From: Thiogranum longum
GTDB lineage: Bacteria; Pseudomonadota; Gammaproteobacteria; DSM-19610
Reading direction: 5' to 3'
Assembly: GCF_004339085.1 (NCBI RefSeq)
Contig: NZ_SMFX01000001.1
Coordinates: 1,067,227-1,131,226, forward strand
Length of the DNA stretch: 64,000 nucleotides
Under the pieces are notes generated by a model. It had not been told where the DNA came from. It made no database searches and saw nothing but the letters and a program-made list of their open reading frames with translations. Positions 8,694 to 26,313 of this stretch are shown here, piece after piece (within the stretch, counting starts at the first letter, position 1; the number at the start of each line of letters is the position of its first letter). The position numbers and the translations under genes were made by a program.

Positions 8694-9672
8694 CTGCTTT
8701 TGCGAGACCAGTGTAACGTGCCAGTCCGTACAGGGCGGTGTGCTGTTCACAAATCACCTTGACCGGCATGGCTTCCAGTAGTGGTTGCATCCTTCCCTTG
8801 TCCATAAAGGCCTGCAAAAAGTAATTTTTTTTCAGCGCTGGCAATATCCTGGGTGCAATACCGCCGCCCAGAAATATACCGCCTGTGGCATTGAGCTTGA
8901 GCGCAAGGTTGCCCGCCTCACGGGCATAAAGCTCGACAAACCACGCCAGTGCTTCGGCACACAATGCATCATCACCGGCAAGGGCACGCTGGCTGATAGC
9001 CGCTGCGGTATCCTGTTGTGGATCATCGAGCCAGCCCGGCGTTGTCGCGGCCTGGCTGTCCAGCAGGTAGCGAAACAGTTCCACCAGCCCGGCTCCGGAC
9101 ACCGTCCGTTCCCAACTGACGTGACCATAGCGTGACTGCAGGGCCTGTAGCAGGCCTGTATCACGTTGAGTCTGTGCTGCAAAATCTGTATGTCCGCCTT
9201 CACAGGCAAAAGGGCGCCGCTGCGCCCCGTCGAAGGTCAGCCCGGCCTGCCCCAGCCCGGTACCGGCCGCGATGACAGCCTGGTTGCCCTGATTGCTGGC
9301 GTGTCCCGCCTGCAGTGTAACCAGTGAACTGTCATCAAGCGTATCGATCCCCCAGGCCAGCGCTTCAAGATCATTCAACAAGTGAACGTGAGGGATGCCA
9401 AGGGCTGTAGAGAGTTCGCTGGCAGACAGTTCCCACGGCAGATTGGTGGTTCGGCAACGGCCATTCACAACCGGCCCGGCCACACCAAACGCTGCCTGTT
9501 GCAGTTGCACTTGTGGATGGTCATGCAGAAAGGATTCGATGATCGGCAGCAGGCCATCAAAGTCGGGGCTGGCGTAGCGGGCGATATCGACAACACGGAA
9601 TCGACCGGCCCCCTGTTCGACTGTCGCAAGGCGCGTGTGAGTGCCGCCTATATCACCTGTCAGTATATTCAC
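8686..9672 (-). CDS. glk: Glucokinase
   Basis: ATP-dependent phosphorylation of glucose to glucose-6-phosphate. The 328-residue protein belongs to the bacterial glucokinase family rather than ROK, as it lacks the ROK cysteine cluster. The phosphate-binding loop reads LTGDIGGTHTRLA at the N-terminus. Sugar-site elements include LLNDLEALAWG, AAGTGLGQAGL and CEGGHTDFA, and the C-terminal IFLGGGIAPRIL matches the adenosine motif. The start codon is GTG. The gene is convergent with sspB (8-bp overlap) and divergent from the ANTAR regulator. Confidence 0.93.
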   Translation of the reverse strand: MNILTGDIGGTHTRLATVEQGAGRFRVVDIARYASPDFDGLLPIIESFLHDHPQVQLQQAAFGVAGPVVNGRCRTTNLPWELSASELSTALGIPHVHLLNDLEALAWGIDTLDDSSLVTLQAGHASNQGNQAVIAAGTGLGQAGLTFDGAQRRPFACEGGHTDFAAQTQRDTGLLQALQSRYGHVSWERTVSGAGLVELFRYLLDSQAATTPGWLDDPQQDTAAAISQRALAGDDALCAEALAWFVELYAREAGNLALKLNATGGIFLGGGIAPRILPALKKNYFLQAFMDKGRMQPLLEAMPVKVICEQHTALYGLARYTGLAKAAT

Positions 9673-9757
9673 GTGTATACTCCGCTTTGAAGGCCGAAGT
9701 GTATCTGATTACTGCCGGCTTTTGTTTTACGTTGATGTGATGTCTGGAGAGCCTGCC

Positions 9758-10429
9758 ATGAATGCGCCTTTAATACTGGTTGCCGACGACAACCCGGAAG
9801 ACCTGGATCTGCTTACCCTGGCTATGCAGGCCGCCGGTTTTGATGTTCTGCAGGCACACAATGGTGATGAGGCTGAAAAACTGGCACTCGAACACCACCC
9901 CGACCTCACCATTCTGGATCTGCGTATGCCGCTGAAAGACGGTTTTGAGGTGGCAGCCAGTTTGCGTAACGCCGGCTTGCCGTTTATTTCCCTCAGCTCC
10001 TATGGCGAGGAAGAAATGGTAGAGCGCGCCACTGACGCCGGTTCGTTGGCCTACCTGGTTAAACCGCTGGAGGCTGACCAGTTGGTGCCGGCTGTACAGG
10101 CTGCGCTACGCCGCGCCGATGACATGCGTCACATGAAAGAGTCCATGGAGCAGATGGACAAGGCTCTGTCGCAAAGTCGTGAAATCAGTATGGTGGTGGG
10201 TATCCTTATGGAGCGCTGTGGTTTCACCGCTATCCAGGCGTTTGACGCCATGCGCGATGAGGCGCGCTCCCAGCGGCGTAAGATTGCCGACGTCGCGCGC
10301 GAATATTTCAATGCCGCAGAAGCCCTGCATGGCATGACCCGCAACATAGCCGAGCGGGCCCGCGAGAAGGCCCAGCGAAGCCAGACAAAACGTCCGCCAA
10401 AGCGCGGCCCGGCGCGGATTATCTCCTGA
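9758..10429 (+). CDS. Response regulator with C-terminal ANTAR (RNA-binding) domain
   Basis: Predicted transcription antiterminator of the AmiR/NasT type. The ATG at 9758 has a GGAG site and begins the receiver domain; the longer frame upstream is not conserved-looking. The receiver has acidic pocket ADDN, phospho-acceptor Asp54 (ILDLRMP) and the VKP lysine. A short coiled linker leads to the ANTAR helices at about residues 140-190 (SMVVGILMERCGFTAIQAFD, then IADVAREYF). A basic, proline-rich tail (KRPPKRGPARIIS) ends the 223-residue protein. ANTAR proteins bind paired RNA hexaloop hairpins in nascent transcripts. No partner kinase lies beside it, so its signal and targets are unknown. Confidence 0.9.
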   Translation: MNAPLILVADDNPEDLDLLTLAMQAAGFDVLQAHNGDEAEKLALEHHPDLTILDLRMPLKDGFEVAASLRNAGLPFISLSSYGEEEMVERATDAGSLAYLVKPLEADQLVPAVQAALRRADDMRHMKESMEQMDKALSQSREISMVVGILMERCGFTAIQAFDAMRDEARSQRRKIADVAREYFNAAEALHGMTRNIAERAREKAQRSQTKRPPKRGPARIIS

Positions 10430-10958: not shown

Positions 10959-10989
10959 TTGACATGGAGTTGACTCCAGGCTTTAGGCT
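10959..10989 (+). promoter_or_regulatory. MerR-type promoter: TTGACA, 19-bp spacer, TAGGCT, with operator dyad
   Basis: The -35 box TTGACA (10959-10964) and -10 box TAGGCT (10984-10989) are 19 bp apart, longer than the usual 17. This spacing is the hallmark of promoters activated by MerR-family untwisting. The spacer holds a perfect dyad: TGGAGT (10965-10970), two bases, ACTCCA (10973-10978). It resembles ZntR/CadR-type operators. It faces the metal/thiol operon that starts at 11077 or 11274, whose last gene encodes a MerR regulator. Confidence 0.75.
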
Positions 10990-11024: not shown

Positions 11025-11046
11025 AACCTGGAGGGTACTCCAGGTT
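11025..11046 (+). promoter_or_regulatory. Second operator-like perfect dyad (9-bp arms)
   Basis: AACCTGGAG (11025-11033) and CTCCAGGTT (11038-11046) form a perfect inverted repeat around GGTA. They share the GGAG/CTCC core with the dyad 50 bp upstream. A TTGAAC at 11022-11027 could be a -35 box, but the matching -10 position is poor. It could be a second regulator site, or a small hairpin in the leader of the transcript from the upstream promoter. Confidence 0.6.
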
Positions 11047-11076: not shown

Positions 11077-11235
11077 ATGAACAGACTGAGCAAACAAACG
11101 GATATGAGAGCCGCAAAAGTTATTGCCGGGCCAGCGTCCGCTATCGCCGTCAAGGCTGGTGTACAGATCCCGATCGTCAGCAATTTGCACGGTCGCCAGG
11201 ACAGTAGCGACTACCGCGCCCGGCTGATTCTGTAA
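11077..11235 (+). CDS. Possible small leader protein of the metal operon (52 aa), unrecognised
   Basis: A 52-codon frame from ATG to TAA lies between the MerR-type operators and the first HMA gene. The product begins MNRLSKQTDMRAAKVIAG and has neither a cysteine motif nor a clear membrane segment. The ribosome site is weak (GTGGAA). It may be a small protein, a leader peptide, or a chance frame in untranslated leader. I do not recognise it. Confidence 0.3.
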   Translation: MNRLSKQTDMRAAKVIAGPASAIAVKAGVQIPIVSNLHGRQDSSDYRARLIL

Positions 11236-11273
11236 TGGCATTTGTGAACGTTGAATTACATCGAGGTGGAACC

Positions 11274-11588
11274 ATGAAGAAAGTAATCGCCACCATGTTG
11301 TTGAGTATAGTCTGGAGCGCTGCGACGCTCGCGGCCGGCATCGAGTACCGGATGCGTGTCGATGGTCTGGCCTGTCCCTATTGTGCTTACGGGATTGAAA
11401 AGAAGCTGAAGGCGATTGACGGCGTTGAGAAGATCGACGTCAATCTCAACGCCGGGTTGGTCGTTGTGGACGTGGCCGAAGGCGTCGAGTTGACAGGGTC
11501 GCAGATGAAAACGCTGTTTCAGGATGCCGGCTTTACCTACCGCAGCATGACGGTGAAGCCGCTTGAAGAGGGGGCGAAAAATGAATGA
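11274..11588 (+). CDS. Periplasmic heavy-metal-associated (HMA) protein, MerP-like
   Basis: A 104-residue secreted metallochaperone-like protein. A signal peptide (MKKVIATMLLSIVWSAATLA) precedes one HMA ferredoxin-like domain with the soft-metal site GLACPYCAYGIEKKL (Cys34, Cys37). The PYC insert and the AYGIEKKL helix differ from classical MerP (GMTCxxC). The ATG at 11274 is chosen because it follows GAGGTGGA and directly begins the signal peptide. Its stop overlaps the start of the next gene (MerT-like). A close paralogue with CPFC lies on the other side of that gene. It probably binds thiophilic metal in the periplasm and passes it to the membrane partner; the metal is unknown. Confidence 0.85.
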   Translation: MKKVIATMLLSIVWSAATLAAGIEYRMRVDGLACPYCAYGIEKKLKAIDGVEKIDVNLNAGLVVVDVAEGVELTGSQMKTLFQDAGFTYRSMTVKPLEEGAKNE

Positions 11589-11982
11589 TGCAACGACCCG
11601 GGGTACTTCGGCCCTGAAAACCACCTGGCTGACACTGTTTGCCTCTACCGGCACACTGGTTTGTTGTGCGCTGCCCATCATTTTTGTATCACTGGGTTTT
11701 GGATCAACAGTCGCAGCACTGACCAGCAGTTTTCCACTGCTGATCACGCTCAGTCTGCACAAGACCTGGGTGTTTGCTTTCTCGGGCGCGATGCTGGTCT
11801 TGTCCGGTTGGCTTATGTACCGGCCTGCAAGAACCTGCCCGACTGATCCTGAACTGGGCCAGTTATGCAATACGACCCAGAAGTGGAACCGGCGACTTTA
11901 CTGGTCCTCCGTTGTCATCTGGTGTATCGGTTTTTTTGCAGCGTTCCTCGCTTTACCATTACGCATCTGGATGGGTCTCTGA
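11581..11982 (+). CDS. MerT-like three-helix inner-membrane metal transport protein
   Basis: A 133-residue membrane protein with three predicted helices. Helix 1 carries a vicinal cysteine pair (TLVCCALPIIF, Cys28-Cys29). Two more cysteines (Cys86, Cys96) sit in the loop between helices 2 and 3. This is the same cysteine layout as MerT, which relays Hg(II) from MerP to the cytoplasm, although the sequence is not a close MerT match. It overlaps the upstream HMA gene by 8 bp and lies between two HMA genes. Transport of mercury or another soft metal is inferred, not proven. Confidence 0.75.
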   Translation: MNDATTRGTSALKTTWLTLFASTGTLVCCALPIIFVSLGFGSTVAALTSSFPLLITLSLHKTWVFAFSGAMLVLSGWLMYRPARTCPTDPELGQLCNTTQKWNRRLYWSSVVIWCIGFFAAFLALPLRIWMGL

Positions 11983-12006: not shown

Positions 12007-12327
12007 ATGAAAATAATCCGTCATAGTATCGCTGCGCTAACATTGCTGTTTCTGATACCCATCGCTCAAGCATCAGGGCCATCATACGCCCTTCAGGTGG
12101 ACGGCTTGGCCTGTCCGTTCTGTGCCTATGGCATCGAGAAGAAGTTGAGTTCTATCGAAGGTGTTGACGACATCCAGGTCGATATCAAGAAGGGCGAGGT
12201 CATTGTGATCATGACTGAAGGTGTCCCTCTCGCTGAAGGTCTTGCACGCGAGAAGGTCAAGGATGCGGGCTTTACCCTGCGTGCTTTTTCTCAACGTAAT
12301 GGGGAGAAACGTCATGAACCCGAATAG
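12007..12327 (+). CDS. Second periplasmic HMA protein (paralogue of the MerP-like protein)
   Basis: A 106-residue secreted protein with a signal peptide (MKIIRHSIAALTLLFLIPIAQA) and one HMA domain whose site is GLACPFCAYGIEKKL (Cys36, Cys39). It matches the paralogue at 11274 almost residue for residue across the metal loop and first helix but diverges in the rest of the domain. It starts after AAAGGAGAA. Its last 14 bp overlap the next gene. Two different HMA chaperones around one MerT-like protein suggest non-equivalent roles, for example import and export or two redox states. Confidence 0.85.
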   Translation: MKIIRHSIAALTLLFLIPIAQASGPSYALQVDGLACPFCAYGIEKKLSSIEGVDDIQVDIKKGEVIVIMTEGVPLAEGLAREKVKDAGFTLRAFSQRNGEKRHEPE

Positions 12328-13243
12328 CGGCCACCACGTCTTCCGTAGAGTTTTTACTGCCTTAGCCCTAGTTGGGGGGAGTGTGGTGATTGGTATGGGA
12401 AGCGCCTGGAGCGCTCCAGTTACGTTCAATACCGCATTACCCGTTGCAAAAAATGAGTTCCTGGTACGCGAGCAGTTTATTATTAATAAGTCCGACGACG
12501 ATCCAGGCAACCTGAATCGGGACCGCACAGCGAAAGCGGCCGTGTCGGTACTCGGTTATGGCGTCAGCGGCAAGCTCGCACTGTTTGGTGTACTGCCTTA
12601 TCGCGACAATGAACTGAAACTGACGGTCGCCGGTCAGCGCGTATCGCGCAGTGCCAGTGGCTTCGGCGACCTCACGGTATTTGGCCGCTACACGCTGGTA
12701 CAGCGGGATCGGCGAGGGCGTAATTTTCGCATCGCTCCGTTTGCCGGTATCAAGGCGCCCACGGGAGACGACGACAAGCGGGATTCCATGAGTGTGTTAC
12801 CCCCGAGCGTTCAGGTCGGTTCAGGTTCATGGGATCCGTTAGTCGGTGTGGTGAGCACTTATCAAACACTGGATTACCAGATTGACGGCCAGTTCAGCTA
12901 TCAGATGAATAACGAGGCAAACGACTTTGAGGCCGGTGATGTGGCACGGCTCGACGGCTCCTTGCAGTATCGCTTGTGGCCGCGAACGCTGGGCAGTGGT
13001 GTGCCTGCGTTTTTCTACGGTGTCATTGAGGCCAACCTGATTCATCAACAGAAGAACCAGGTCAATGGTCAGTCAAATCCCGATTCCGGCGGCACCCGGC
13101 TGTTTCTGACGCCGGGTATACAATATGTCACCCGGCGCTGGATTGCCGAGACAGCCATACAGGTTCCCGTGGTACAGAACCTCAACGGCGATGCCCTGGA
13201 AAATGACTACATCGCGCGGATCAGCGTCCGCTTCAATTTCTGA
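12314..13243 (+). CDS. Outer-membrane beta-barrel protein, MetA-pathway/'transporter' family
   Basis: A 309-residue exported protein with a signal peptide ending WSA. It then has an even pattern of amphipathic strands and a terminal aromatic residue (RISVRFNF), as in outer-membrane barrels. The pattern (FGVLPYRDNEL, SGFGDLTVFGRYTL, APFAGIKAPTGDDD, DPLVGVVSTYQTLDYQIDG) matches the putative phenol-degradation MetA/'transporter' family, often found beside metal-resistance genes. The substrate is unknown. The ATG at 12314 overlaps the end of the HMA gene, showing translational coupling. Confidence 0.75.
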   Translation: MNPNSGHHVFRRVFTALALVGGSVVIGMGSAWSAPVTFNTALPVAKNEFLVREQFIINKSDDDPGNLNRDRTAKAAVSVLGYGVSGKLALFGVLPYRDNELKLTVAGQRVSRSASGFGDLTVFGRYTLVQRDRRGRNFRIAPFAGIKAPTGDDDKRDSMSVLPPSVQVGSGSWDPLVGVVSTYQTLDYQIDGQFSYQMNNEANDFEAGDVARLDGSLQYRLWPRTLGSGVPAFFYGVIEANLIHQQKNQVNGQSNPDSGGTRLFLTPGIQYVTRRWIAETAIQVPVVQNLNGDALENDYIARISVRFNF

Positions 13244-13267
13244 GTGAGCCGGGAGAAGGTGGCCATC

Positions 13268-14245
13268 ATGGGAAAAAAGATTTTGAAAGCACTGGGTGGG
13301 GTCACCGTCTTGCTGTTGGGACTGGCAGTGATTGTCTGGCTGGTCTGGATACCCTCAGCGCAGGAACCCGGTTATGTGTTTGTCGCGTCCTGGGGCGAAC
13401 CGGGCGCCGCACCCGGTCAGTTTCACGATCCGACCGGGATTGAGGTCACGGCTACCGAAGTCTTCGTCAGTGATGCGCGCAATGCCCGCATCCAGGTGTT
13501 CAATTTCGACGGGCACTTCAAACGCCAGTTCGGGACCAAAGGTGATGAGCCGGGACAACTGGGCCGTCCCATGAACCTCAGCATCGCCGGTGATGAGTTA
13601 TATGTGGCTGATTACTGGAACGACCGTATTCAGGTATTCAGCCTGGATGGCGTACAGCGTCGCAGCATCGGCAAGGCAGGAAAGGGTCCCGGTGAGTTCA
13701 ACGCGCCGGGTGGCGTGGCGGTGGCCGTCAATGGCGACCTGTATGTCGCCGATTTTTATGGCCAGCGTATTCAGCAGCTTCACGCCGACGGTGCTTTCGT
13801 CAGACAGTGGGGTCAAACCGGCAAGGTTGGCATTCGGGCGGGTGAGTTCAATTACCCGACCGATGTGGCACTGGCGGACGACGGAACCCTGTACGTGGCA
13901 GATGGCTACAACGACCGGATTCAGGTGTTCAGCCCGGATGGCAGTTTCTTGCTCAAGTGGGGTGGGCCTTTCGGTATGAACATCTTCGGACCTTTCAACG
14001 GCTGGTTTGCTACTGTCACCGGAATAACGATAGATCGCAGTGGTAACGTCTTAGTGGCCGACTTCTACAACAATCGGGTGCAGAAGTTTTCACCTGATGG
14101 CACTTTCCTGTCGACGTTCGGTAACAAGGGTACGGGGCCAGGCCAGTTCGAAAAGGCAATTGCGGTCGCAGTAGCACGCGATGGCACTGTTTTTGTGGCC
14201 GATTTTGCCAATAACCGCATTCAGAAATGGAGGCCAAAGCCATAA
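13268..14245 (+). CDS. Membrane-anchored NHL-repeat beta-propeller protein
   Basis: A 325-residue protein with a single N-terminal membrane helix (about residues 7-27) and then about six NHL repeats forming a beta-propeller. Repeats carry the motif GEF..P.gva.....lyVaDf.nnRIQvF, seen at LYVADYWNDRIQVF, LYVADFYGQRIQQL, LYVADGYNDRIQVF, VLVADFYNNRVQKF and VFVADFANNRIQKW. The propeller would face the periplasm. NHL propellers bind protein or ligand partners; its role in this metal/thiol operon is unknown. ATG 13268 is preferred over the GTG at 13244 because GGGAGAAGG lies upstream of it. Confidence 0.85.
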   Translation: MGKKILKALGGVTVLLLGLAVIVWLVWIPSAQEPGYVFVASWGEPGAAPGQFHDPTGIEVTATEVFVSDARNARIQVFNFDGHFKRQFGTKGDEPGQLGRPMNLSIAGDELYVADYWNDRIQVFSLDGVQRRSIGKAGKGPGEFNAPGGVAVAVNGDLYVADFYGQRIQQLHADGAFVRQWGQTGKVGIRAGEFNYPTDVALADDGTLYVADGYNDRIQVFSPDGSFLLKWGGPFGMNIFGPFNGWFATVTGITIDRSGNVLVADFYNNRVQKFSPDGTFLSTFGNKGTGPGQFEKAIAVAVARDGTVFVADFANNRIQKWRPKP

Positions 14246-14401: not shown

Positions 14402-14686
14402 ATGAGCATTAAAGTGGAAGTATTTTCTTCCCCCGGTTGCAGCAAGTGCGGGCATGCAAAGGAGGCGCTGCGTAAACTTGTTGATGAACTGGGTGGAGAT
14501 AAAATCGATTGGCGTGAAGTCAACATTCTGGATGAACTGGACTACGCAGTCGAGCTAGGTGTCCTGTCGACACCAGCTATCGCGATCAATGGTGAATTGC
14601 TCTTTTCCGGATTGCCGTCGGTGCGTAAATTACGTGCGGCATTGGAAACCCGGCTTGGGGTCGATGCCAAGCGAGAGCAGGCATGA
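14402..14686 (+). CDS. Small thioredoxin-like redox protein (CSKC)
   Basis: A 94-residue cytoplasmic thioredoxin/glutaredoxin-fold protein of the small-thioredoxin type. The active site is SSPGCSKCGHA (Cys13, Cys16) near the end of the first strand, followed later by the cis-proline loop STPAIAINGELLFSG. No signal peptide is present. It overlaps the double CcdA gene in an ATGA, so the two are coupled. In known systems a cytoplasmic thioredoxin feeds electrons to CcdA/DsbD, so this is a plausible dedicated electron donor. Confidence 0.88.
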   Translation: MSIKVEVFSSPGCSKCGHAKEALRKLVDELGGDKIDWREVNILDELDYAVELGVLSTPAIAINGELLFSGLPSVRKLRAALETRLGVDAKREQA

Positions 14687-15987
14687 CAACCTTACTGCTT
14701 ACCAGTGCCGCCCTGCTGGGTTTGCTGGCATTTTTTGAGCCTTGTACGATCGCGACGCATACGCTGTTTTCCGTGCGTGCGCACCAACGGGCGGGTCGTC
14801 ACTGTTGCCAGAATCTCCTGACGGTCTGGCTGTCCCGCGTGGCACTGTTGGTCGTCTTGTTCGTCGTCATCGTGCTGGTAACGGAGCCACCGGTTTGGGG
14901 AGCCTGGTTACCCAGCATCATTCTGAGCGCCATTGCGCTTGTCTACATTGTCTCTCGCTTTATGTACATCCCGATACCCCACCTGGCATTTTTCCGCGTA
15001 CTGCCGGCGGGAAAGTCGTTGCCGTTTGCGGTACAACTCGGGATGACCTTGCCGGCATGCACGATTCCGCTGTTTGCGGTGGTCGCCGGTATTGCGGCCA
15101 CCGTGGATTCGGTTGCGTTTGCCGCTTTGGCGGGGCTGCTGTTTGGTAGCCTGTTTACGCTGCCCATGGTTGTCACCGCCTGGCTCGGGTTACACGAGGA
15201 TGGCCGTGAGTTACTTAACCGCGCCGCCCAGGGTAGTCCTTACCTGACAGCCGTCCTGCTGTTTGGTGTCGCCTTGTATCTACTCATACCGTCGTTGGGT
15301 GTCGATACAGACATGCTCAAGGCAACACTTCAGCACGCCAGTTGGGCAGGTATCGGTCTCAGTTTTTTGGCGGGTTTTATTTTCAGCTTTAACCCGGTGT
15401 CTTTTGCCTCTATCCCGGTGATGCTCGCCTATGTGACCAAGGCCCATGAAGAACGCCGCGCCGTCTTGATGGGGGGTGCTTTCGTTGCAGGCATGATTGT
15501 GACACATGTCGTACTCGGCGTGACGGCCGCGCTGGGCGGTGAGTGGGTACAGCACGTGATGGGAAGAGCGTGGGGGTTGTTTCTGGGGCCCTTGCTGATT
15601 GTTCTCGGTCTTGTCTGGCCGGGCTGGATCAAGGTGCGACTACCCTGGATTGCGGTGCGCGGCCGTAAGGTTCCGGGGCTTTGGGGTGCCTTTCTACTGG
15701 GGATTCCTTTCTCGGTAGCGGTGTGTCCATTCTGTGCACCCGCGCTGTTGGTCGCACTTACCGCGAGTGCAGCGATCGGTTCGGTGCCTTTCGCGTTCGC
15801 GCTTCTACTGGCATTTGCTGTGGGGCGCACCATTCCCGTTCTATTGGGTGCCTGGAGTATGGGATGGCTGGAATCATTGCAGCTGATTTCGCAACACCAG
15901 AGAGGATTTGAAATCCTTGCGGGTGTGACGCTGATTCTGACCGGGCTTTATCTGCTCAACGAATACCTGTTCATCATAAAATATTGA
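14683..15987 (+). CDS. Double-length CcdA/DsbD-type membrane thiol transporter (tandem fusion)
   Basis: A 434-residue polytopic membrane protein that reads as two CcdA-like halves in tandem. Half 1 (about residues 1-205) keeps the paired redox cysteines: FFEPCTIATHTL (Cys21) and LPACTIPLFAV (Cys126). Half 2 (about 222-434) has FSFNPVSFASIPV where the first cysteine should be (now Val239). Its second site has become a CxxC (VCPFCAPALL, Cys348 and Cys351). CcdA proteins carry reducing equivalents from cytoplasmic thioredoxin to periplasmic thiols. Partners in this operon would be the small thioredoxin inside, and the HMA or other periplasmic cysteine proteins outside. The fusion is unusual. Confidence 0.8.
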   Translation: MTTLLLTSAALLGLLAFFEPCTIATHTLFSVRAHQRAGRHCCQNLLTVWLSRVALLVVLFVVIVLVTEPPVWGAWLPSIILSAIALVYIVSRFMYIPIPHLAFFRVLPAGKSLPFAVQLGMTLPACTIPLFAVVAGIAATVDSVAFAALAGLLFGSLFTLPMVVTAWLGLHEDGRELLNRAAQGSPYLTAVLLFGVALYLLIPSLGVDTDMLKATLQHASWAGIGLSFLAGFIFSFNPVSFASIPVMLAYVTKAHEERRAVLMGGAFVAGMIVTHVVLGVTAALGGEWVQHVMGRAWGLFLGPLLIVLGLVWPGWIKVRLPWIAVRGRKVPGLWGAFLLGIPFSVAVCPFCAPALLVALTASAAIGSVPFAFALLLAFAVGRTIPVLLGAWSMGWLESLQLISQHQRGFEILAGVTLILTGLYLLNEYLFIIKY

Positions 15988-15993
15988 GGCGCT

Positions 15994-16401
15994 ATGAAAC
16001 TGTATCGGATTGGTGATATTACAAATCTCACGGGCTTGAGCGCGGATACTTTACGGTATTACGAGAAGATCGGTCTCTTGCCCCGGGTATCGCGGACCGC
16101 ATCGGGTATCCGACAGTACCAGGAGCGCGATATCTCACGTTTGAGATTCATTCAACGTGCCCAGAAAATGAATTTTAGCCTGGCAGAGATTGGCGATCTG
16201 CTGCAAATGCGCGAAGATCCACAACACGCTCGCGATGAAATACGTGAACTGACGCGTAACAAACTTGCAGAAGTCGAAAAACAACTTAAGGAACTCGATA
16301 CTTTGCGCAAAGAATTACGGCTGCTGGTCAATCTGTGCCGGGGTTCCAGCGATGGATGCCCTATCATTGAAAACATTGATGGAGCCGATCAGCCCGGCTG
16401 A
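15994..16401 (+). CDS. MerR-family heavy-metal-responsive regulator
   Basis: A 135-residue dimeric regulator. The N-terminal winged HTH (MKLYRIGDITNLTGLSADTL, then RYYEKIGLLP) is followed by a long dimerisation helix and a C-terminal metal loop LCRGSSDGCPIIE (Cys115, Cys122). This places it near the ZntR/CadR/PbrR group. The cysteine usual at the start of the dimerisation helix (near residue 78) is missing; a histidine lies there. It is the last gene of the metal/thiol operon, and the promoter at 10959 has the matching architecture, so it probably controls its own operon. Confidence 0.9.
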   Translation: MKLYRIGDITNLTGLSADTLRYYEKIGLLPRVSRTASGIRQYQERDISRLRFIQRAQKMNFSLAEIGDLLQMREDPQHARDEIRELTRNKLAEVEKQLKELDTLRKELRLLVNLCRGSSDGCPIIENIDGADQPG

Positions 16402-16406
16402 ATTGC

Positions 16407-17024
16407 TTAGTGATGATCCGCGAGTTGCTCACGGGCTTCATGAATTACCGCCCAGGCCGAACGTATCACAATGCCGGCGATGAGCAGGCCGATCAGAATG
16501 TCCGGCCATGCCGATTGCAGCCAACCGACCAGGCCTGCCGCGATCAATACGCCGACGTTACCGATCATGTCGTTACGCGAGCAGATCCAGGTTGCTCGAA
16601 GGTTGATGTCTCCGCTCCGATAACGTGCCAACAGGGCAACGCATAGCGCGTTCGCCAACAGCGCCAGCACACCAAACCATCCCATGGTAGCCGCATCGGG
16701 TAACTCATTTTCCGCCAACTTGTGCATCGCCTCAACAGCAATGCCGACACCCAGTAGTAGTTGCAACAGTCCGCTGGTCAGTGCCGCGCGTGCGCGCCAG
16801 TGAGCAGCGCGGCCCAGGGCGAACAAGCCGAGTGCATACACCAGCGCATCGGCCAGCATATCCAGCGAATCCGCCAGCAGGGCGGTCGATCCACTCCACA
16901 GGCCGGCGCCGAATTCGGCAACAAACATGCCGGCATTGATCAACAACACAATTGTTAGCACGCGCCGCTCGGCAGCATTAGCCTGTTTTAGGTTCACGCC
17001 ACAGTTGTCATCGCAGTTACTCAC
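16407..17024 (-). CDS. Short cation diffusion facilitator (CDF) family transporter
   Basis: A 205-residue membrane protein covering only the six-helix transport domain of the CDF family; the cytoplasmic C-terminal domain of normal (about 300 aa) members is absent. The N-terminus has a cysteine pair (CDDNC). Helix 2 carries DSLDMLADAL (Asp-rich site). Helix 5 reads SRNDMIGNVGVLIAA, where the usual His of HxxxD is Asn/Arg but Asp remains. Short CDF proteins of this kind commonly accompany czc/cus operons. It follows the RND pump gene by 5 bp and is the last gene of that operon. It converges tail-to-tail with merR. Confidence 0.85.
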   Translation of the reverse strand: MSNCDDNCGVNLKQANAAERRVLTIVLLINAGMFVAEFGAGLWSGSTALLADSLDMLADALVYALGLFALGRAAHWRARAALTSGLLQLLLGVGIAVEAMHKLAENELPDAATMGWFGVLALLANALCVALLARYRSGDINLRATWICSRNDMIGNVGVLIAAGLVGWLQSAWPDILIGLLIAGIVIRSAWAVIHEAREQLADHH

Positions 17025-17029
17025 GGGTG

Positions 17030-20000
17030 TTATTCATCGACAAAGTAGCTGCGTGAAAAGGTTTTAAATAACACAGGGAGAATGAACAGCGTCAGTAAGG
17101 TGGAGGAAAACAACCCACCGACTACCACAGTGGCGAGTGGCCGTTGTACTTCTGAGCCGACCCCTGACGAAAGCAACATGGGAATCAACCCCAACGCCGC
17201 AATGGAAGCCGTCATCAGCACGGGCCGCAAGCGGGACAGGGCACCTTCGAATACGGCTTTGTCGGGGCCCGTACCGTCGATGATGCGCTGGTTGATGGCA
17301 TTAACCATCACCACGCCGTTAAGAACGGCGACACCAAACAAGGCGATGAAGCCGATGGAGCCCGGTACCGACAGGTACTGCCCGGAGATGAACAGTGCCG
17401 CGATACCGCCGATCAGCGCCAGCGGCACATTCAGCATAATCAATAGGGCCTGTCCAACGGAGCCGAAGGCGAAGTATAACAACAGGAAGATCAGTCCCAG
17501 TGACAGCGGTACGACGATCATCAGGCGTGACTGCGCGCGTTGCTGATTCTCGAACTGGCCACCGAATACCACGGTGTAACCGGCCGGTAGTTCGATTTCA
17601 TCATTAATGCGCTGTTGCAGTTCCGCCACCAGTCCGCCCATGTCGCGGCCCTCGACATTGGACTGGATGACCACGCGGCGTTGCACATCGTCACGCCGGA
17701 TCTGTGGCGGGCCGGACTCGATGGCAACTTGCGCCACGTCGCCCAGTCGTACCCAGGCGCCACCGGGCGCCTGAAGTATCAGGCTGCGTATGGCTTCGAC
17801 GCTGTCGCGGTATTCTTCGCTCAGTCGCACGTAGATGTCATAGCGCTCGTTCCCCTTGATCACCTGGCCTGCCTCGCGGCCGCCGATGGCGTCCGCAACC
17901 AGGTCCATTACTTGCGCCACCGGGATACCGTAGCGTGCCAGTGCATCCCGGTCCGGTCGAACTGCAAGCTGGGCTTCGCCGCCAATCTGTTCCATGGCTA
18001 CGCCACGCGTGCCCTCGACCTTTTTCACCAGCGCTTCTATTTCACTGCCTTTCTGTGCCAGCAGTTCAAGGTCTGAGCCGAACAGCTTGATGGCAAGCTG
18101 TGCACGAACACCGGATAACAACTCGTCAACGCGTGTAGCGATGGGTTGCGAGAAGGAGAATAGCAGGCCCGGATGGCTGGACATTTTCTTCTCCATCAGT
18201 TTCTGCAAAGCCTGGCGGTTGTCCGCACTGATCCATTCCGACACCGGCTTCAGCCCGACAAAAATTTCCACGTTGGATGCCGGCTCCGGGTCACCGCCGA
18301 TCTCGGGGCGCCCGACGCGACTGGTGGCGTATAGCACTTCCGGGAACTGAATCAATTCAGCTTCCAGCTTGCCGGCCACTTCAAGTGCGGTATCCAGGCT
18401 GGAAGAGGGCGCCAGGGTAACGCGGATGTTGAGCGTGCCTTCCTCCAGTTCTGGCACGAACTCGGTGCCCAGAAACGGCACCAGTGCCAGCGAACCGATG
18501 AATAGCAACAGGGCACTGACCACCACCCTGTTGCGGTGTTGCTGCGCCCAGGGCAACGCGTGCCGGTAAAAACGTTCCAGTGGCCGTATTACCGGGCTAT
18601 CCTTGTGTTTCACGCCGCGTGTGAACAGGTAAGTCGCCAGTGCCGGTACCACCACCAGCGCTACTATCAACGAGGCCAGCATGGCCAGCACAATGGATAT
18701 CGCCATAGGCTGGAACAGTTTGCCCTCGACGCCTTCCAGGCTGAACAGCGGCGCAAAAACAATGATAATAATCAGCACGGCAAAGAACACCGGTCGGCCG
18801 ACTTCACGCGCCGACTCCTGAATACGCAGGGCGATACCGTGTTTGTCGTGGCCCGCATTGTAGGGGTGTTCTCCACCCGGTGCGATGTCGCGTTTCACCT
18901 TTTCATGATGCTCTGCATCCGGCGTGGTGAGGTGACTGAAAATGTGTTCCATCATCACCACCGAGCCGTCCACCATCATGCCGATGGCAATCGCCAGTCC
19001 GCCAAGCGACATCAGGTTCGCTGAGACGCCCCAGTATGCCATGGCCATCAGCGCCAGGCCGATGGAGATCGGTACCGAGATTAGCACCAGGAAGGTGGCG
19101 CGCAGATTGACCAGGAACAGCATCAGTACAATGACGATCAGCACGAAGGCTTCCAGCAGGGCTTTCGTGACGGTGTTCACCGCCTGGTCGACGAGGCTGG
19201 CCTGGTCGTAGAAAGGTTCCAGCGTCACGCCATCCGGCAGTGCGGTCCGGATCGCCGGCATACGCGATTCAATACCGTCGATAGTAGCCTTGGTGTTTGC
19301 GCCGAGCCGTTTCAATATTACACCTGCGACGACTTCACCCAGCGCTTCCGGGTTGCCATCGGCATCGCGGCGCGTGATACTCACCGCCCCCTGGCGGATC
19401 TCCGGACCGAAATCGACGCGTGCCACATCGCTGACACGCACGACTACACCATCAACATCCTTGAGCGGGATGTTGCCGATGTCGCGCAGGCCGTCCTCGC
19501 CACTGCGCACCCAGCCGACGCCGCGTATCACCAGCTGTTCCTCACCGCGGTTCATATACCAGCCGCCGGCGTTGCGGTTATTCGCCTCGACAGCCTCTGC
19601 CACATCGTCTCCGGTCAGGTTGTACGCGAGTAACCGCTGTGGGTCGAGTTGCACCTGGTACTGGCGTACTTCGCCACCAAATGATAAGACCTCGGTCACA
19701 CCGCCCACCGGCATCAGCAGTAGTTTCACGATCCAGTCGTTGAGGCTGCGCAGCGCAATGGCATCGTATTTTTCAGGGTCTTCTGCGCGCAGGATATATT
19801 GATAGACCTGCCCCAGCCCCGAGGTGTTGGGTCCGATACCCGGTGTCCCGATGCCTTCCGGTATCTGTTCGCGCGCCGCCTGCAGGCGCTCGAACACCAG
19901 CTGGCGGGCGAAGTAGATATCAGTGCCTTCCTTGAACACCACGGTAATGACCGACAGACCGGTCTTGGAAATCGAGCGCACTTCCTCCACGTCCGGTAGT

Positions 20001-20224
20001 GCGTACATCACCGCCTCGATAGGGAAGGTGATCAGCTGTTCAACTTCCTCCGCGGCCAGACCGCGTGCCTCGGTGTTGATCTGGACCTGTACATTGGTGA
20101 CGTCAGGGAAGGCGTCCAGGTTGAGGTTGGGCAGAATCAGCATGCCGCCTACCACGGTAGCCAGCAGCGCCAGTACCACCAGTAGGCGGTTTTCGACCCC
20201 CAGGTCGATGAGTTTGTTTAGCAT
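17030..20224 (-). CDS. Heavy-metal efflux RND transporter (CzcA/CusA family)
   Basis: Inner-membrane proton-driven pump of 1064 residues, forming the trimeric core of a tripartite efflux system. It has twelve predicted membrane helices and two large periplasmic loops. The HME-RND helix IV motif AIAIGMMVDGSVVMMEHIF keeps the proton-relay Asp and Glu. A histidine-rich insert just after helix IV (HIFSHLTTPDAEHHEKVK and GHDKHG) is unlike the textbook CzcA sequence and may bind metal at the cytoplasmic face. The family member is certain, but whether it exports Co/Zn/Cd or Cu/Ag cannot be settled from the motif. Confidence 0.93.
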   Translation of the reverse strand: MLNKLIDLGVENRLLVVLALLATVVGGMLILPNLNLDAFPDVTNVQVQINTEARGLAAEEVEQLITFPIEAVMYALPDVEEVRSISKTGLSVITVVFKEGTDIYFARQLVFERLQAAREQIPEGIGTPGIGPNTSGLGQVYQYILRAEDPEKYDAIALRSLNDWIVKLLLMPVGGVTEVLSFGGEVRQYQVQLDPQRLLAYNLTGDDVAEAVEANNRNAGGWYMNRGEEQLVIRGVGWVRSGEDGLRDIGNIPLKDVDGVVVRVSDVARVDFGPEIRQGAVSITRRDADGNPEALGEVVAGVILKRLGANTKATIDGIESRMPAIRTALPDGVTLEPFYDQASLVDQAVNTVTKALLEAFVLIVIVLMLFLVNLRATFLVLISVPISIGLALMAMAYWGVSANLMSLGGLAIAIGMMVDGSVVMMEHIFSHLTTPDAEHHEKVKRDIAPGGEHPYNAGHDKHGIALRIQESAREVGRPVFFAVLIIIIVFAPLFSLEGVEGKLFQPMAISIVLAMLASLIVALVVVPALATYLFTRGVKHKDSPVIRPLERFYRHALPWAQQHRNRVVVSALLLFIGSLALVPFLGTEFVPELEEGTLNIRVTLAPSSSLDTALEVAGKLEAELIQFPEVLYATSRVGRPEIGGDPEPASNVEIFVGLKPVSEWISADNRQALQKLMEKKMSSHPGLLFSFSQPIATRVDELLSGVRAQLAIKLFGSDLELLAQKGSEIEALVKKVEGTRGVAMEQIGGEAQLAVRPDRDALARYGIPVAQVMDLVADAIGGREAGQVIKGNERYDIYVRLSEEYRDSVEAIRSLILQAPGGAWVRLGDVAQVAIESGPPQIRRDDVQRRVVIQSNVEGRDMGGLVAELQQRINDEIELPAGYTVVFGGQFENQQRAQSRLMIVVPLSLGLIFLLLYFAFGSVGQALLIMLNVPLALIGGIAALFISGQYLSVPGSIGFIALFGVAVLNGVVMVNAINQRIIDGTGPDKAVFEGALSRLRPVLMTASIAALGLIPMLLSSGVGSEVQRPLATVVVGGLFSSTLLTLFILPVLFKTFSRSYFVDE

Positions 20225-20236
20225 GTCTCATCTCTC

Positions 20237-21388
20237 CTAGTGGTTGTGGACTTCAAAACCGCCCTTGGCGATTTCGGACTGGATAAAGAAGGCGCCTTTG
20301 CTGACGATGCGTTCACCGTCTTCCAGTCCGTCGATAACCATTCGTTTGCCGACCGTGCGCAGCACTTCGATTTCCTTCGGCTCGTAGCGTCCAGGCTGTT
20401 CCTCGATAAACACCTGCCAGTCTCCGTCCGGGCTGCGCAGTACTGCCGCTAGCGGCACCGCGATGCCGGGTTTGCGTTGTGCGCTCTGAATTTCGACGCT
20501 GACAAATTGACCGGGGTGCAACTGGTCATCGGGGTTGGCGACCTGTACGCGTACTGACAGGGTGCGTGTACTTTCATCCAGCGCGTGCCGTGCCTGGACC
20601 ACCTCGCCGTCCAGCCAGCGGTCATTGACCTTGATACGTGCCGGAGCACCGACGCGGATGTTGGCGGCATCTTCCGGTGTCAGACGTGCATCCACCCAGA
20701 GCGTAGTCTCGTCGGTGATAACGAACAGTTCACGCCCGGGTTCCGCCAGTTCGCCGACAATAAAGTCATCGCGAATCACGGTGCCTCGCTGGGGGCTTAG
20801 CAGTACCAGTTCACCGGTGGCCCTGGAGGAATCGCTCTGTTTCAGCAATGACTGAATCTGTGTGTCGGTCATACCGTAGGCCTGCAACCTTGCATGGGCC
20901 TGCTGGCGTGCTACCTGGGCTTCGATGTAACGCCTTTCCGATACCACCTTGCGACCCAGTTTCTTCACTCGCTTCCACTCGCGGTCGTTGACCAGCAGTT
21001 CGCCCTGCACCTGCGCAACCTCGACGCTGGACAGGGTGACCAGTTCCTGGCCGGCCGTCACCGTGTCACCCAGCCTGGCGTGGCGCTGCAAGATCTGCGC
21101 CTCGATACGCGGCGTCACCTTGGTGGTGCGATAGGCATTCAGAGCGACTTCGCCGGGCGCGTTAATGATGTCGGTGATATTGCTGTGCTGCACCGTCATA
21201 ATTTCGATACCGGCGGTACGGATCTGTACTTCACTTAGTGCCGCGGCGCCTTCCTGTTCGTGACCGCGCTCGTTATGACGCTCTTCCTTGTGGCCGCTTT
21301 CTTCATGTCCACGTTCATCGTCGGCCGCAAACAGAAGGCTGCCAGAACCCAGTGCAAACAGTAAAACCAGTAAATGGGAATAATGCAT
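20237..21388 (-). CDS. Heavy-metal RND periplasmic adaptor (CzcB/CusB-type)
   Basis: A 383-residue membrane-fusion protein linking the RND pump to the TolC-like channel. It has an N-terminal signal peptide, then a His/Glu-rich segment (DDERGHEESGHKEERHNERG) that may bind metal. The lipoyl/barrel-sandwich half motif is EAQILQRHARLGDTVTAGQEL, a coiled-coil hairpin follows, and the second barrel half includes ITDETTLWVDARLTPEDA. The His-rich N-terminus resembles CzcB. It lies between the channel gene and the pump gene with short gaps. Confidence 0.92.
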   Translation of the reverse strand: MHYSHLLVLLFALGSGSLLFAADDERGHEESGHKEERHNERGHEQEGAAALSEVQIRTAGIEIMTVQHSNITDIINAPGEVALNAYRTTKVTPRIEAQILQRHARLGDTVTAGQELVTLSSVEVAQVQGELLVNDREWKRVKKLGRKVVSERRYIEAQVARQQAHARLQAYGMTDTQIQSLLKQSDSSRATGELVLLSPQRGTVIRDDFIVGELAEPGRELFVITDETTLWVDARLTPEDAANIRVGAPARIKVNDRWLDGEVVQARHALDESTRTLSVRVQVANPDDQLHPGQFVSVEIQSAQRKPGIAVPLAAVLRSPDGDWQVFIEEQPGRYEPKEIEVLRTVGKRMVIDGLEDGERIVSKGAFFIQSEIAKGGFEVHNH

Positions 21389-21427
21389 GATATCAATTCT
21401 CCAGAAATTCAGTCGGGGACGTTGCGG

Positions 21428-22648
21428 TTACAAACCCAGCCAGTGTGTGGTACGACCGGATGCGATCAGCCAGTCGATCCAGGCTGTCCAGACAGCGCCT
21501 TGCAGCTTGATGGCCGAGGCTTGTGTGTCCAGGGTTTGCTGAAGCTGAATCAGATATTCGGTGGTACCGATTTCACCGCTTTCCCACAGACGTTTGAGTA
21601 GGTCGATGCGCCCCTTAAGGCTTGGCTGCCCGCTTTTTTCCCAGTAGTTCAGCGCGGCACGCGTAACGCTGTAGCGTTGCGCCGCACCCTGCAAACGGCC
21701 TTTGGCACGCAGCAGCCGGTTGTAATAGAACTGTTCAGCGCGGACTGCATCGGCGTTGGCAGCATCCAGTTCGGCGCGGAAAGTATTGCGCACGAACAGC
21801 GGGATGGACACTGTGATGCCCAGCAGCGTGTCGTCGTCTTCTTTGCCACCGCGCACGCCGATGGTCGGGTCGGGTCGGCGGTCACGCCGGGCAATGGCAA
21901 TCGATGCGCGGGCGGCTGCCGCCTCGGCTTCCAACTGGCGCAATGCTGGATGTTGCTGCAACAATTTATCGGCGTTAAAAGCCGGTAGTTCTGTAGGTAA
22001 CAGCGGTAATGCGGGCCAACCGCTGGGTGGCGTTTGCACCAGTGCGGCCAGACGGGCTTCCGTTGACATAGCATCCGCTGTGGTTGAAGCTGCCTGCATG
22101 CGTGCCTCGGACAATGCGAGACGGGCAAGATCAACATCGGTCTGGCCGACATCACCGGCCGCATAACGACGCTTAGACAGGCGCAGAAATTCACCCAGCA
22201 ATTTCACCCGTTCTTGCGAAAGGCGGGCGGCTTCGCTGGAAATCAATACACCGCTTAGCTCACTCAGTAACTCGCCCAACATCGCCTGCCGCTTTGCGGC
22301 CAGCGCTGCCTGGGCTGCACGCATCGACTCATGGCCGGCTCTGTCACGCGCCGGCTGTTTCCCGCTCCAGTCGAAGGACTGCACCAACCCCACGGTTTTG
22401 GTGATATCCGCAGCATCTTCGTATTCGACCTCGATTTCGGGGTTGTAGAGTGGTTGACCCGTTGCTCGTGCTTCGGCCTCGGCGCGCTGCAAATCGGCGC
22501 GCGCGGCCTGTGCGGCAGGATGTTGCGTAAGAAAATCCTGAACCAACTGTTTCAGCGCCGGTGAAACCCCGGACGCATTGACACTGGTGACCAGACCCAA
22601 TAACAGACAGCCTGCCAGGCCGGACTGCCATACAAGTAATTTTCGCAT
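21428..22648 (-). CDS. TolC-family outer-membrane channel (CzcC/CusC-type)
   Basis: Outer-membrane exit duct of the tripartite metal pump, 406 residues from the chosen ATG (MRKLLVWQSG), which starts a signal peptide ending VNASG. The body is alpha-helical with repeated coiled-coil outer-membrane efflux domains. Family stretches include LPEAx-like GQPLYNPEIEVEYED, RRPDPTIGVRGGKEDDDTLLG (typical CzcC) and ISIPL-like VSIPLFVRN. The longer frame upstream adds 11 residues without a better start. It is transcribed after the CzcI-like gene. Confidence 0.92.
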   Translation of the reverse strand: MRKLLVWQSGLAGCLLLGLVTSVNASGVSPALKQLVQDFLTQHPAAQAARADLQRAEAEARATGQPLYNPEIEVEYEDAADITKTVGLVQSFDWSGKQPARDRAGHESMRAAQAALAAKRQAMLGELLSELSGVLISSEAARLSQERVKLLGEFLRLSKRRYAAGDVGQTDVDLARLALSEARMQAASTTADAMSTEARLAALVQTPPSGWPALPLLPTELPAFNADKLLQQHPALRQLEAEAAAARASIAIARRDRRPDPTIGVRGGKEDDDTLLGITVSIPLFVRNTFRAELDAANADAVRAEQFYYNRLLRAKGRLQGAAQRYSVTRAALNYWEKSGQPSLKGRIDLLKRLWESGEIGTTEYLIQLQQTLDTQASAIKLQGAVWTAWIDWLIASGRTTHWLGL

Positions 22649-22721
22649 TGAAGTGAATCCCGAAAGAGCAAATAGATACACAGCATGACGTACACGTCAC
22701 GCGGCCTGTTACATCAAGGAT

Positions 22722-25695: not shown

Positions 25696-26313
25696 CTAGG
25701 ACGATCCCGGGTCGAGGCCTGCAATCATTGCCAGTCTGACCAGTTCGGTCGGCGATGCTGCATCCATCTTGGTCATCAGGTTTGCACGGTGTAGTTCGAC
25801 GGTTTTAATGCTGATGCCAAGTTCTGAGGCGATAACCTTGTTCTGTTTTGAGTGCAGTACGTATTTCATCACTTCATATTCACGTGGTGTCAGGCGTTCT
25901 ATCCTGCTGCGAACGTTGTCTACCTGTGTTTTACGCAATCGCTCGTCCCTGTCACAGGCAATTGCGCTCTGTAGCAGTTCCAGCATCAGTGCGTCATTGT
26001 AGGGCTTCTCGATAAAATCATAGGCCCCGGCCTTCATGGCTCTGACTGCCATTGCTACATCTGCATGGCCAGTGACAATAATTACAGGAATTGTGGCACC
26101 AAGTTTTTTTAAACGCGCATACAGTTCCATTCCGTTGATATCGGGCATGCGAACATCGAGGACAACGCAGCCGGGTAGCCCGTCATCAAAGTGATCAAGG
26201 AAAGCCTGCCCACATTCGAATTCACACACTGACAGGTGGGCAGATTCGGCAAGCCATTTCAGCGATTCCCTGGCCAGTCGGTCGTCATCCACGATATGGA
26301 TTGCAGGTTTCAT
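25696..26313 (-). CDS. FixJ/TtrR-type response regulator
   Basis: A 205-residue DNA-binding response regulator. The receiver domain has IVDDD, phospho-acceptor Asp53 (VLDVRMPDING) and the EKP lysine motif. A LuxR/FixJ-type helix-turn-helix (LTPREYEVMKYVLHSKQNKV, then SIKTVELHRANLMTKM) ends the protein. Its start overlaps the stop of the sensor kinase gene in an ATGA, so they form an operon and a cognate pair. It probably activates the solute-binding gene downstream and/or the b-type cytochrome gene upstream; that is inference. Confidence 0.93.
   Translation of the reverse strand: MKPAIHIVDDDRLARESLKWLAESAHLSVCEFECGQAFLDHFDDGLPGCVVLDVRMPDINGMELYARLKKLGATIPVIIVTGHADVAMAVRAMKAGAYDFIEKPYNDALMLELLQSAIACDRDERLRKTQVDNVRSRIERLTPREYEVMKYVLHSKQNKVIASELGISIKTVELHRANLMTKMDAASPTELVRLAMIAGLDPGSS

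Follow-up and report, generated by a model that had tools for sequence, protein, structure and literature searches.

Within a 64-kb window, the whole 64,000-nucleotide stretch of DNA analysed here, we identified a metal-type operon in which a small thioredoxin gene is followed by a gene for a protein composed of two CcdA-like halves. The features of the operon are as follows:

10959..10989, + strand: MerR-family-type promoter/operator (TTGACA, a 19-bp spacer with the dyad TGGAGT-TG-ACTCCA, then TAGGCT)
11235..11588, + strand: MerP-like periplasmic HMA metal-binding protein (GLACPYCAYG; HMA 8e-10; MerP model 1.4e-9, below cut-off)
11563..11982, + strand: MerT-like membrane protein (vicinal CC in the first TM helix; MerT 0.0043)
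12007..12327, + strand: second MerP-like HMA protein (GLACPFCAYG; HMA 1.8e-8)
12221..13243, + strand: outer-membrane beta-barrel-type protein (Phenol_MetA_deg, 4e-14; start codon uncertain)
13244..14245, + strand: NHL-repeat beta-propeller protein (NHL 5e-40)
14402..14686, + strand: small cytosolic thioredoxin (GCSKCG; Thioredoxin_3 4.6e-14; ArsE-type thioredoxin model 6.9e-11)
14683..15306, + strand: half 1 of the fusion (residues ~1-208; CcdA-like, ~6 TM)
15307..15987, + strand: half 2 of the fusion (residues ~209-434; CcdA/DsbD_TM, ~6 TM)
15994..16401, + strand: MerR-family metal regulator, CueR/ZntR-like (CueR 1e-33, ZntR 1e-33, both below cut-off)

The promoter at 10959..10989 is the only such site within the window. 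Shortly downstream of it, positions 11025-11046 form a perfect 9-bp inverted repeat, AACCTGGAG-GGTA-CTCCAGGTT, which may be a second operator or a hairpin. The MerT match of the 11563..11982 product scores 17.5 bits against a Pfam gathering score of 32.9, so the protein is MerT-like only; its TL[IV]CCALPI motif recurs in most related loci. No signal peptide was seen in the thioredoxin. The regulator carries two cysteines in its metal loop (C-x6-C), has no cysteine at the dimer-helix position used by MerR and ZntR, and reaches 97.6 on the MerR mercury-sensor model, below the cut-off of 150.85. Beyond the operon, a response regulator with an ANTAR output domain lies just upstream (9641-10429), and a divergent CDF transporter with a CusA/CzcA-type heavy-metal RND efflux system (TIGR00914, 1039 bits) sits directly beside it (16407-22681). 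Further along, a histidine kinase fused to a phosphonate-type periplasmic binding domain (26310-28709) adjoins a LuxR-type response regulator.

The fusion gene (14683-15987, + strand) begins with an ATG and encodes 434 residues with approximately 12 TM helices and cysteines at positions 21, 41, 42, 126, 348 and 351. Its start codon overlaps the thioredoxin stop codon (ATGA, with four bases common to both genes), and the two genes are therefore probably translationally coupled. Hydropathy and structure models place about six TM helices in each half, and positively charged loops at residues 33-44, 92-111, 252-260 and 317-329 predict the same N-out orientation for both halves. Half 1 contains E19-P20-C21 in TM1, P124-A125-C126 in TM4 and a CC pair at 41/42 in the first cytosolic loop, and half 2 contains N237-P238-V239 in TM1 and C348-P-F-C351 in TM4. 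An initial annotation had described the first half as keeping one canonical cysteine per redox helix (Cys21 and Cys126) and the second as carrying NPV and CPFC (Cys348/351), and both descriptions hold.

The same annotation had proposed that two CcdA-like units are fused in this one chain, and sequence and profile matches of both halves confirm it. Half 2 matches Pfam DsbD_TM above the cut-off (1.3e-12; 48 bits, gathering score 27.1) and the solved CcdA 5vkv by sequence. Half 1 alone has no Pfam match; a profile of half 1 together with its free-standing relatives recovers the fusion's own half 2 (E 3e-5), matches the majority of ~45 independent CcdA/DsbD proteins, in many cases along their entire length (best E 3e-10), and matches CcdA-like plasmid genes at about 1e-6 to 5e-5. 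Comparison of this profile by hhalign gives E 5.9e-7 to half 2 and 1.2e-10 to CcdAs, superseding a weak earlier result (P 0.0017) obtained from the close family alone, before free-standing relatives were added. One free-standing half 1 additionally matches the DsbD-like region of TsoB along its length (1.8e-5). Because of the Pfam and 5vkv matches of half 2 and the profile matches of half 1, we classify both halves as CcdA-like by sequence. The profile alignment sets Cys21 on the CcdA TM1 cysteine, with Val239 of half 2 at the same position, and aligns the CcdA PC of TM4 with PAC in half 1 and CPFC in half 2, such that the TM4 cysteines are offset by about one residue. Residue 19, beside Cys21, is an invariant Glu in half 1 and Ser in the CcdA consensus.

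In predicted structure, which the initial annotation had put forward for comparison with CcdA, this kinship is less clear than in sequence, with a match for half 2 and a weak one for half 1. The half 2 model aligns with 5vkv at Z 6.7 (rmsd 4.0, 190 residues aligned) as the top-ranked comparison, and the half 1 model does so at Z 4.9 (rmsd 5.9, 152 aligned), below the others; Foldseek returned no match at E <= 0.001 for either model. The full-length model is of moderate confidence (pLDDT 79, low in half 2), and the half 1 model is confident (pLDDT 91). Half 1 resembles NqrD/NqrE and RnfA/RnfE in fold, with Z 7.5-7.8 to NqrE/RnfA, values within the chance range for helical proteins. A reading in which half 2 alone is a CcdA and half 1 is an unrelated six-helix domain draws on this closer fold match and on the missing Pfam assignment of half 1, and we consider it highly improbable: the half 1 profile matches both half 2 and independent CcdAs with the TM1 cysteine in register, the free-standing relative matches TsoB, and no sequence relation to Rnf/Nqr proteins (PF02508) is detected for half 1 (hhalign E 0.47). 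Sequence does not support homology to that family for half 2 either (E 0.33), and a non-CcdA identity of half 1 was rejected on the profile evidence. NqrD/NqrE and RnfA/RnfE each place one cysteine in each of two pseudo-symmetric helices. That the two halves form a pseudo-dimer like the NqrDE/RnfAE pairs, with Cys21, Cys126, Cys348 and Cys351 jointly holding one metal ion or iron-sulfur cluster at their interface, is very unlikely in our judgement; if true, this would be an intramembrane metal site linked to thioredoxin, of a kind not known among CcdA proteins.

Cys21, Cys126, Cys348 and Cys351 are conserved in 100% of 79 full-length homologues, all of them fused and mostly from gammaproteobacterial genomes, which answers in the affirmative the earlier question of whether the Cys348/Cys351 CxxC is maintained. 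Cys41 and Cys42 are present in about 76% and 70% of the same 79 proteins, and mean column identity is 74% in half 2 versus 63% in half 1. Residues invariant across half 1 and its free-standing relatives include E19-P20-C21, R52, Y88 and P124-A125-C126-x-x-P129; one homologue search pattern itself contained the EPC motif, and EPC is also present in nine relatives found via other patterns and in all seven free-standing half-1 proteins.

Each half also exists as a protein of its own. Free-standing half-2 proteins occur in one further genome (G130, locus L096) and on plasmids of Cupriavidus, Paraburkholderia, Variovorax, Afipia and Nitrobacter, where they are annotated "cytochrome c biogenesis protein CcdA". 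TM1 carries N/TPV and TM4 carries CPxC in those whose sequences were read; each of these has a thioredoxin gene immediately in front and a MerR-type regulator close by, and the Afipia and Nitrobacter loci further contain genes for MerT, MerP, a P-type ATPase and an MFS protein. Neither the rest of G130 nor the plasmids that bear half 2 yielded a half 1. Free-standing half-1 proteins, with EPC and PAC motifs, occur in seven genomes whose half-2 relatives are at best distant. One is the last gene of a merT-merP-merA operon (L261), one follows a MerR and an HMA gene and precedes a P-type ATPase (L265), one has the order HMA-half 1-P-type ATPase (L264), and one is flanked by a MerR/HMA unit on one side and a mer operon on the other (L260). 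At two of the seven loci (L262 and L263) no recognised metal gene was found nearby, and a thioredoxin gene was found near none of the seven in the about 7-12 kb examined. The initial annotation had held that half 2 lost its first cysteine and gained the CxxC within the fusion. Free-standing half-2 proteins already carry NPV and CPxC, and the asymmetry therefore predates the fusion; it is a trait that two older subfamilies brought with them and did not arise through fusion, and the fusion unites two pre-existing metal-operon CcdA types. The further suggestion of electron relay through the halves in series is required by neither unit, as each occurs alone in genomes or plasmids in which no close relative of the other turned up.

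The surroundings of the fusion recur across 81 related loci. A thioredoxin gene (GCxKC) lies directly upstream at 77, every one with upstream sequence, and the remaining four begin right at the edge of a contig. At 58 loci the downstream neighbours include a MerR-family gene whose loop is of the CRGSxDGCPII type, and in 53 of these the dimer-helix stretch is free of cysteine, so that the three-cysteine Hg site is absent there. HMA genes are present at 39 of the 81 loci and MerT-like genes at 30 (some loci are truncated), an outer-membrane barrel-type gene, identified by clustering, is present at 23 and in several is the first operon gene, and the minimal unit of thioredoxin, double CcdA and MerR often stands alone. 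Of the 81 loci, 52 have a MerR-type promoter with the 19-bp spacer, in almost all cases ahead of the first operon gene or immediately ahead of the thioredoxin, compared with three loose matches in shuffled sequence.

Several rarer associations were also seen. At eight loci a metallo-beta-lactamase-fold gene lies downstream of the fusion, before MerR where that gene is seen (for example, L010:4894-5877), and its product is possibly part of the fusion system. Five loci link the fusion with a cysteine-rich metallochaperone of the zf_CopZ type (for example, L056:4225-4701), a hint of copper. At two loci (L042 and L043) the thioredoxin gene recurs, together with an NHL propeller gene, between the fusion and MerR. 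At another (L098, genome G076), a thioredoxin and a truncated CcdA-fusion fragment lie inside an arsenic operon with, by eye, ArsR, arsenate-reductase-like and Acr3-like genes, alongside MerR and MerT-like genes.

The host genome carries a separate 760-aa DsbD and a DsbD_2 protein, which rule out the fusion as its sole DsbD or cytochrome-c CcdA; because of these proteins the fusion is best regarded as accessory and not as a housekeeping system. Metal handling is plausible and is supported by the operon context for the whole fusion, half 1 included; the protein probably contributes to the transport or detoxification of a toxic metal, for instance mercury or copper, and not to cytochrome maturation. 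We tentatively favour a thioredoxin-coupled soft-metal carrier in the inner membrane, giving this reading a little less than an even chance. With both halves in the N-out CcdA topology, a thiophilic metal ion would cross the membrane through half 1 by ligand exchange between Cys21 and Cys126, assisted by Glu19, His26 and the cytosolic Cys41/42. Docking of thioredoxin would fall to half 2 and its CPFC motif, and the docked thioredoxin could then reset the cysteines by reducing them or by taking the metal over. Movement could be uptake for detoxification or efflux via the outer-membrane barrel protein, and the metal could be Hg, Cu, Cd or another, as the regulator resembles CueR and ZntR equally and is without the MerR/ZntR dimer-helix cysteine.

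This soft-metal carrier is favoured because free-standing half 1 occurs mostly in metal-transport operons without thioredoxin, because half 1 has a charged EPC/PAC site with an invariant Glu19 beside Cys21, and because half 2 is a thioredoxin-linked unit whose free-standing counterparts reside in clusters with MerR, P-type ATPase, MerT and MerP. The HMA and MerT-like genes at many loci, an envelope-spanning set of parts and the conserved MerR-type promoter argue in the same direction, as does ArsG, discussed below. The repeated occurrence of the two families in metal operons, and their union in a single polypeptide here, suggest a joint function.

Some of the same observations also fit a transmembrane electron relay, the main rival, which we take seriously without expecting it to prevail. 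Electrons would pass from the cytosolic thioredoxin through the CcdA units to the periplasm and keep the MerP-like CxxC and MerT CC cysteines reduced and metal-binding, with half 1 working via Cys21/Cys126 and the CPFC of half 2 as an extra dithiol. CcdA and DsbD carry electrons from thioredoxin (PMC4460558), half 1 retains their canonical cysteine pair, one in TM1 and one in TM4, the thioredoxin that such a relay needs lies directly upstream in 77 of 77 testable loci, and the HMA partners have CxxC; the cysteine pair and the thioredoxin neighbour each weaken the carrier interpretation. In half 2, however, TM1 has no cysteine with which to form the CcdA TM1-TM4 disulfide, free-standing half 1 sits mostly in mer or P-type ATPase operons with no thioredoxin neighbour, and many loci are without the HMA and MerT genes whose products would be the substrates. 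The limited share of loci with HMA or MerT-like genes counts against the carrier too, since the lone thioredoxin-CcdA-MerR unit fits a redox role as well, and so do the two free-standing half-1 loci with no metal gene nearby count against it. That minimal unit, which is conserved downstream of a metal-type promoter whether or not transport genes are present, would also suit a thiol-repair module in which thioredoxin and the double CcdA, carrying no metal themselves and co-induced with metal transporters, repair metal-damaged periplasmic or membrane thiols. We regard such a module as unlikely, as it leaves unexplained both the lone half 1 beside P-type ATPases and MerA and the invariant Glu beside Cys21.

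Routine annotation treats CcdA-like proteins as cytochrome c biogenesis factors. The conserved fusion, the two parent families that occur free-standing and the association of all three with metal operons speak for a branch of CcdA that serves metal resistance, and the fusion would provide a testable case of how a disulfide-carrier fold turns into a metal carrier. Our literature search on tandem CcdA proteins found nothing relevant; CcdA entries annotated as "mercury transporter" are described in actinomycetes (PMC12195606). Both halves belong by sequence to the family of the CcdA/DsbD TM domain (PF02683 DsbD_TM, PF13386 DsbD_2), with which the fusion shares the TM1 and TM4 cysteines of half 1 and a cytosolic thioredoxin partner. 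It differs in having two units per chain, in a half 2 with CPxC in TM4 and no TM1 cysteine, in EPC and PAC of half 1 in place of the CcdA SPC and PC, and in its position in a metal operon with a MerR-type promoter. The free-standing half-2 CcdAs of the Cupriavidus, Paraburkholderia, Variovorax, Afipia and Nitrobacter plasmids are about 51-55% identical to half 2 and share NPV and CPxC, with the order MerR-thioredoxin-CcdA in those examined and MerT/MerP in Afipia and Nitrobacter; unlike the fusion loci, they are without half 1, and their MerR has CC in the dimer region. ArsG (NF040495), a reported organoarsenical efflux transporter (PMC9144182) that is found with ArsE, is likewise a CcdA-like membrane protein in a metalloid operon, and the report of its transport activity shows that a CcdA fold can carry metalloids. 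The fusion-operon thioredoxin also matches the ArsE-type model, and ArsG is the best NCBIfam match of half 2; at 66 bits against a cut-off of 200, membership of the fusion was rejected. ArsG is moreover a single unit, and the ArsG examined has SPC in TM1 and FCP in TM4. With MerP/MerT uptake systems the fusion operon shares MerP-like HMA proteins, MerT-like CC proteins and a MerR-family regulator, and free-standing half 1 occurs in one mer operon. It differs from mer in that MerT and MerP matches fall below curated cut-offs, the regulator is without the MerR dimer-region cysteine, and MerA is encoded elsewhere in the host genome, beside a gene that is MerC-like by eye, and not in the fusion operon. 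The fusion would supply a component so far missing from the picture of mer-like operons in gammaproteobacteria that oxidise sulfur or live at vents.
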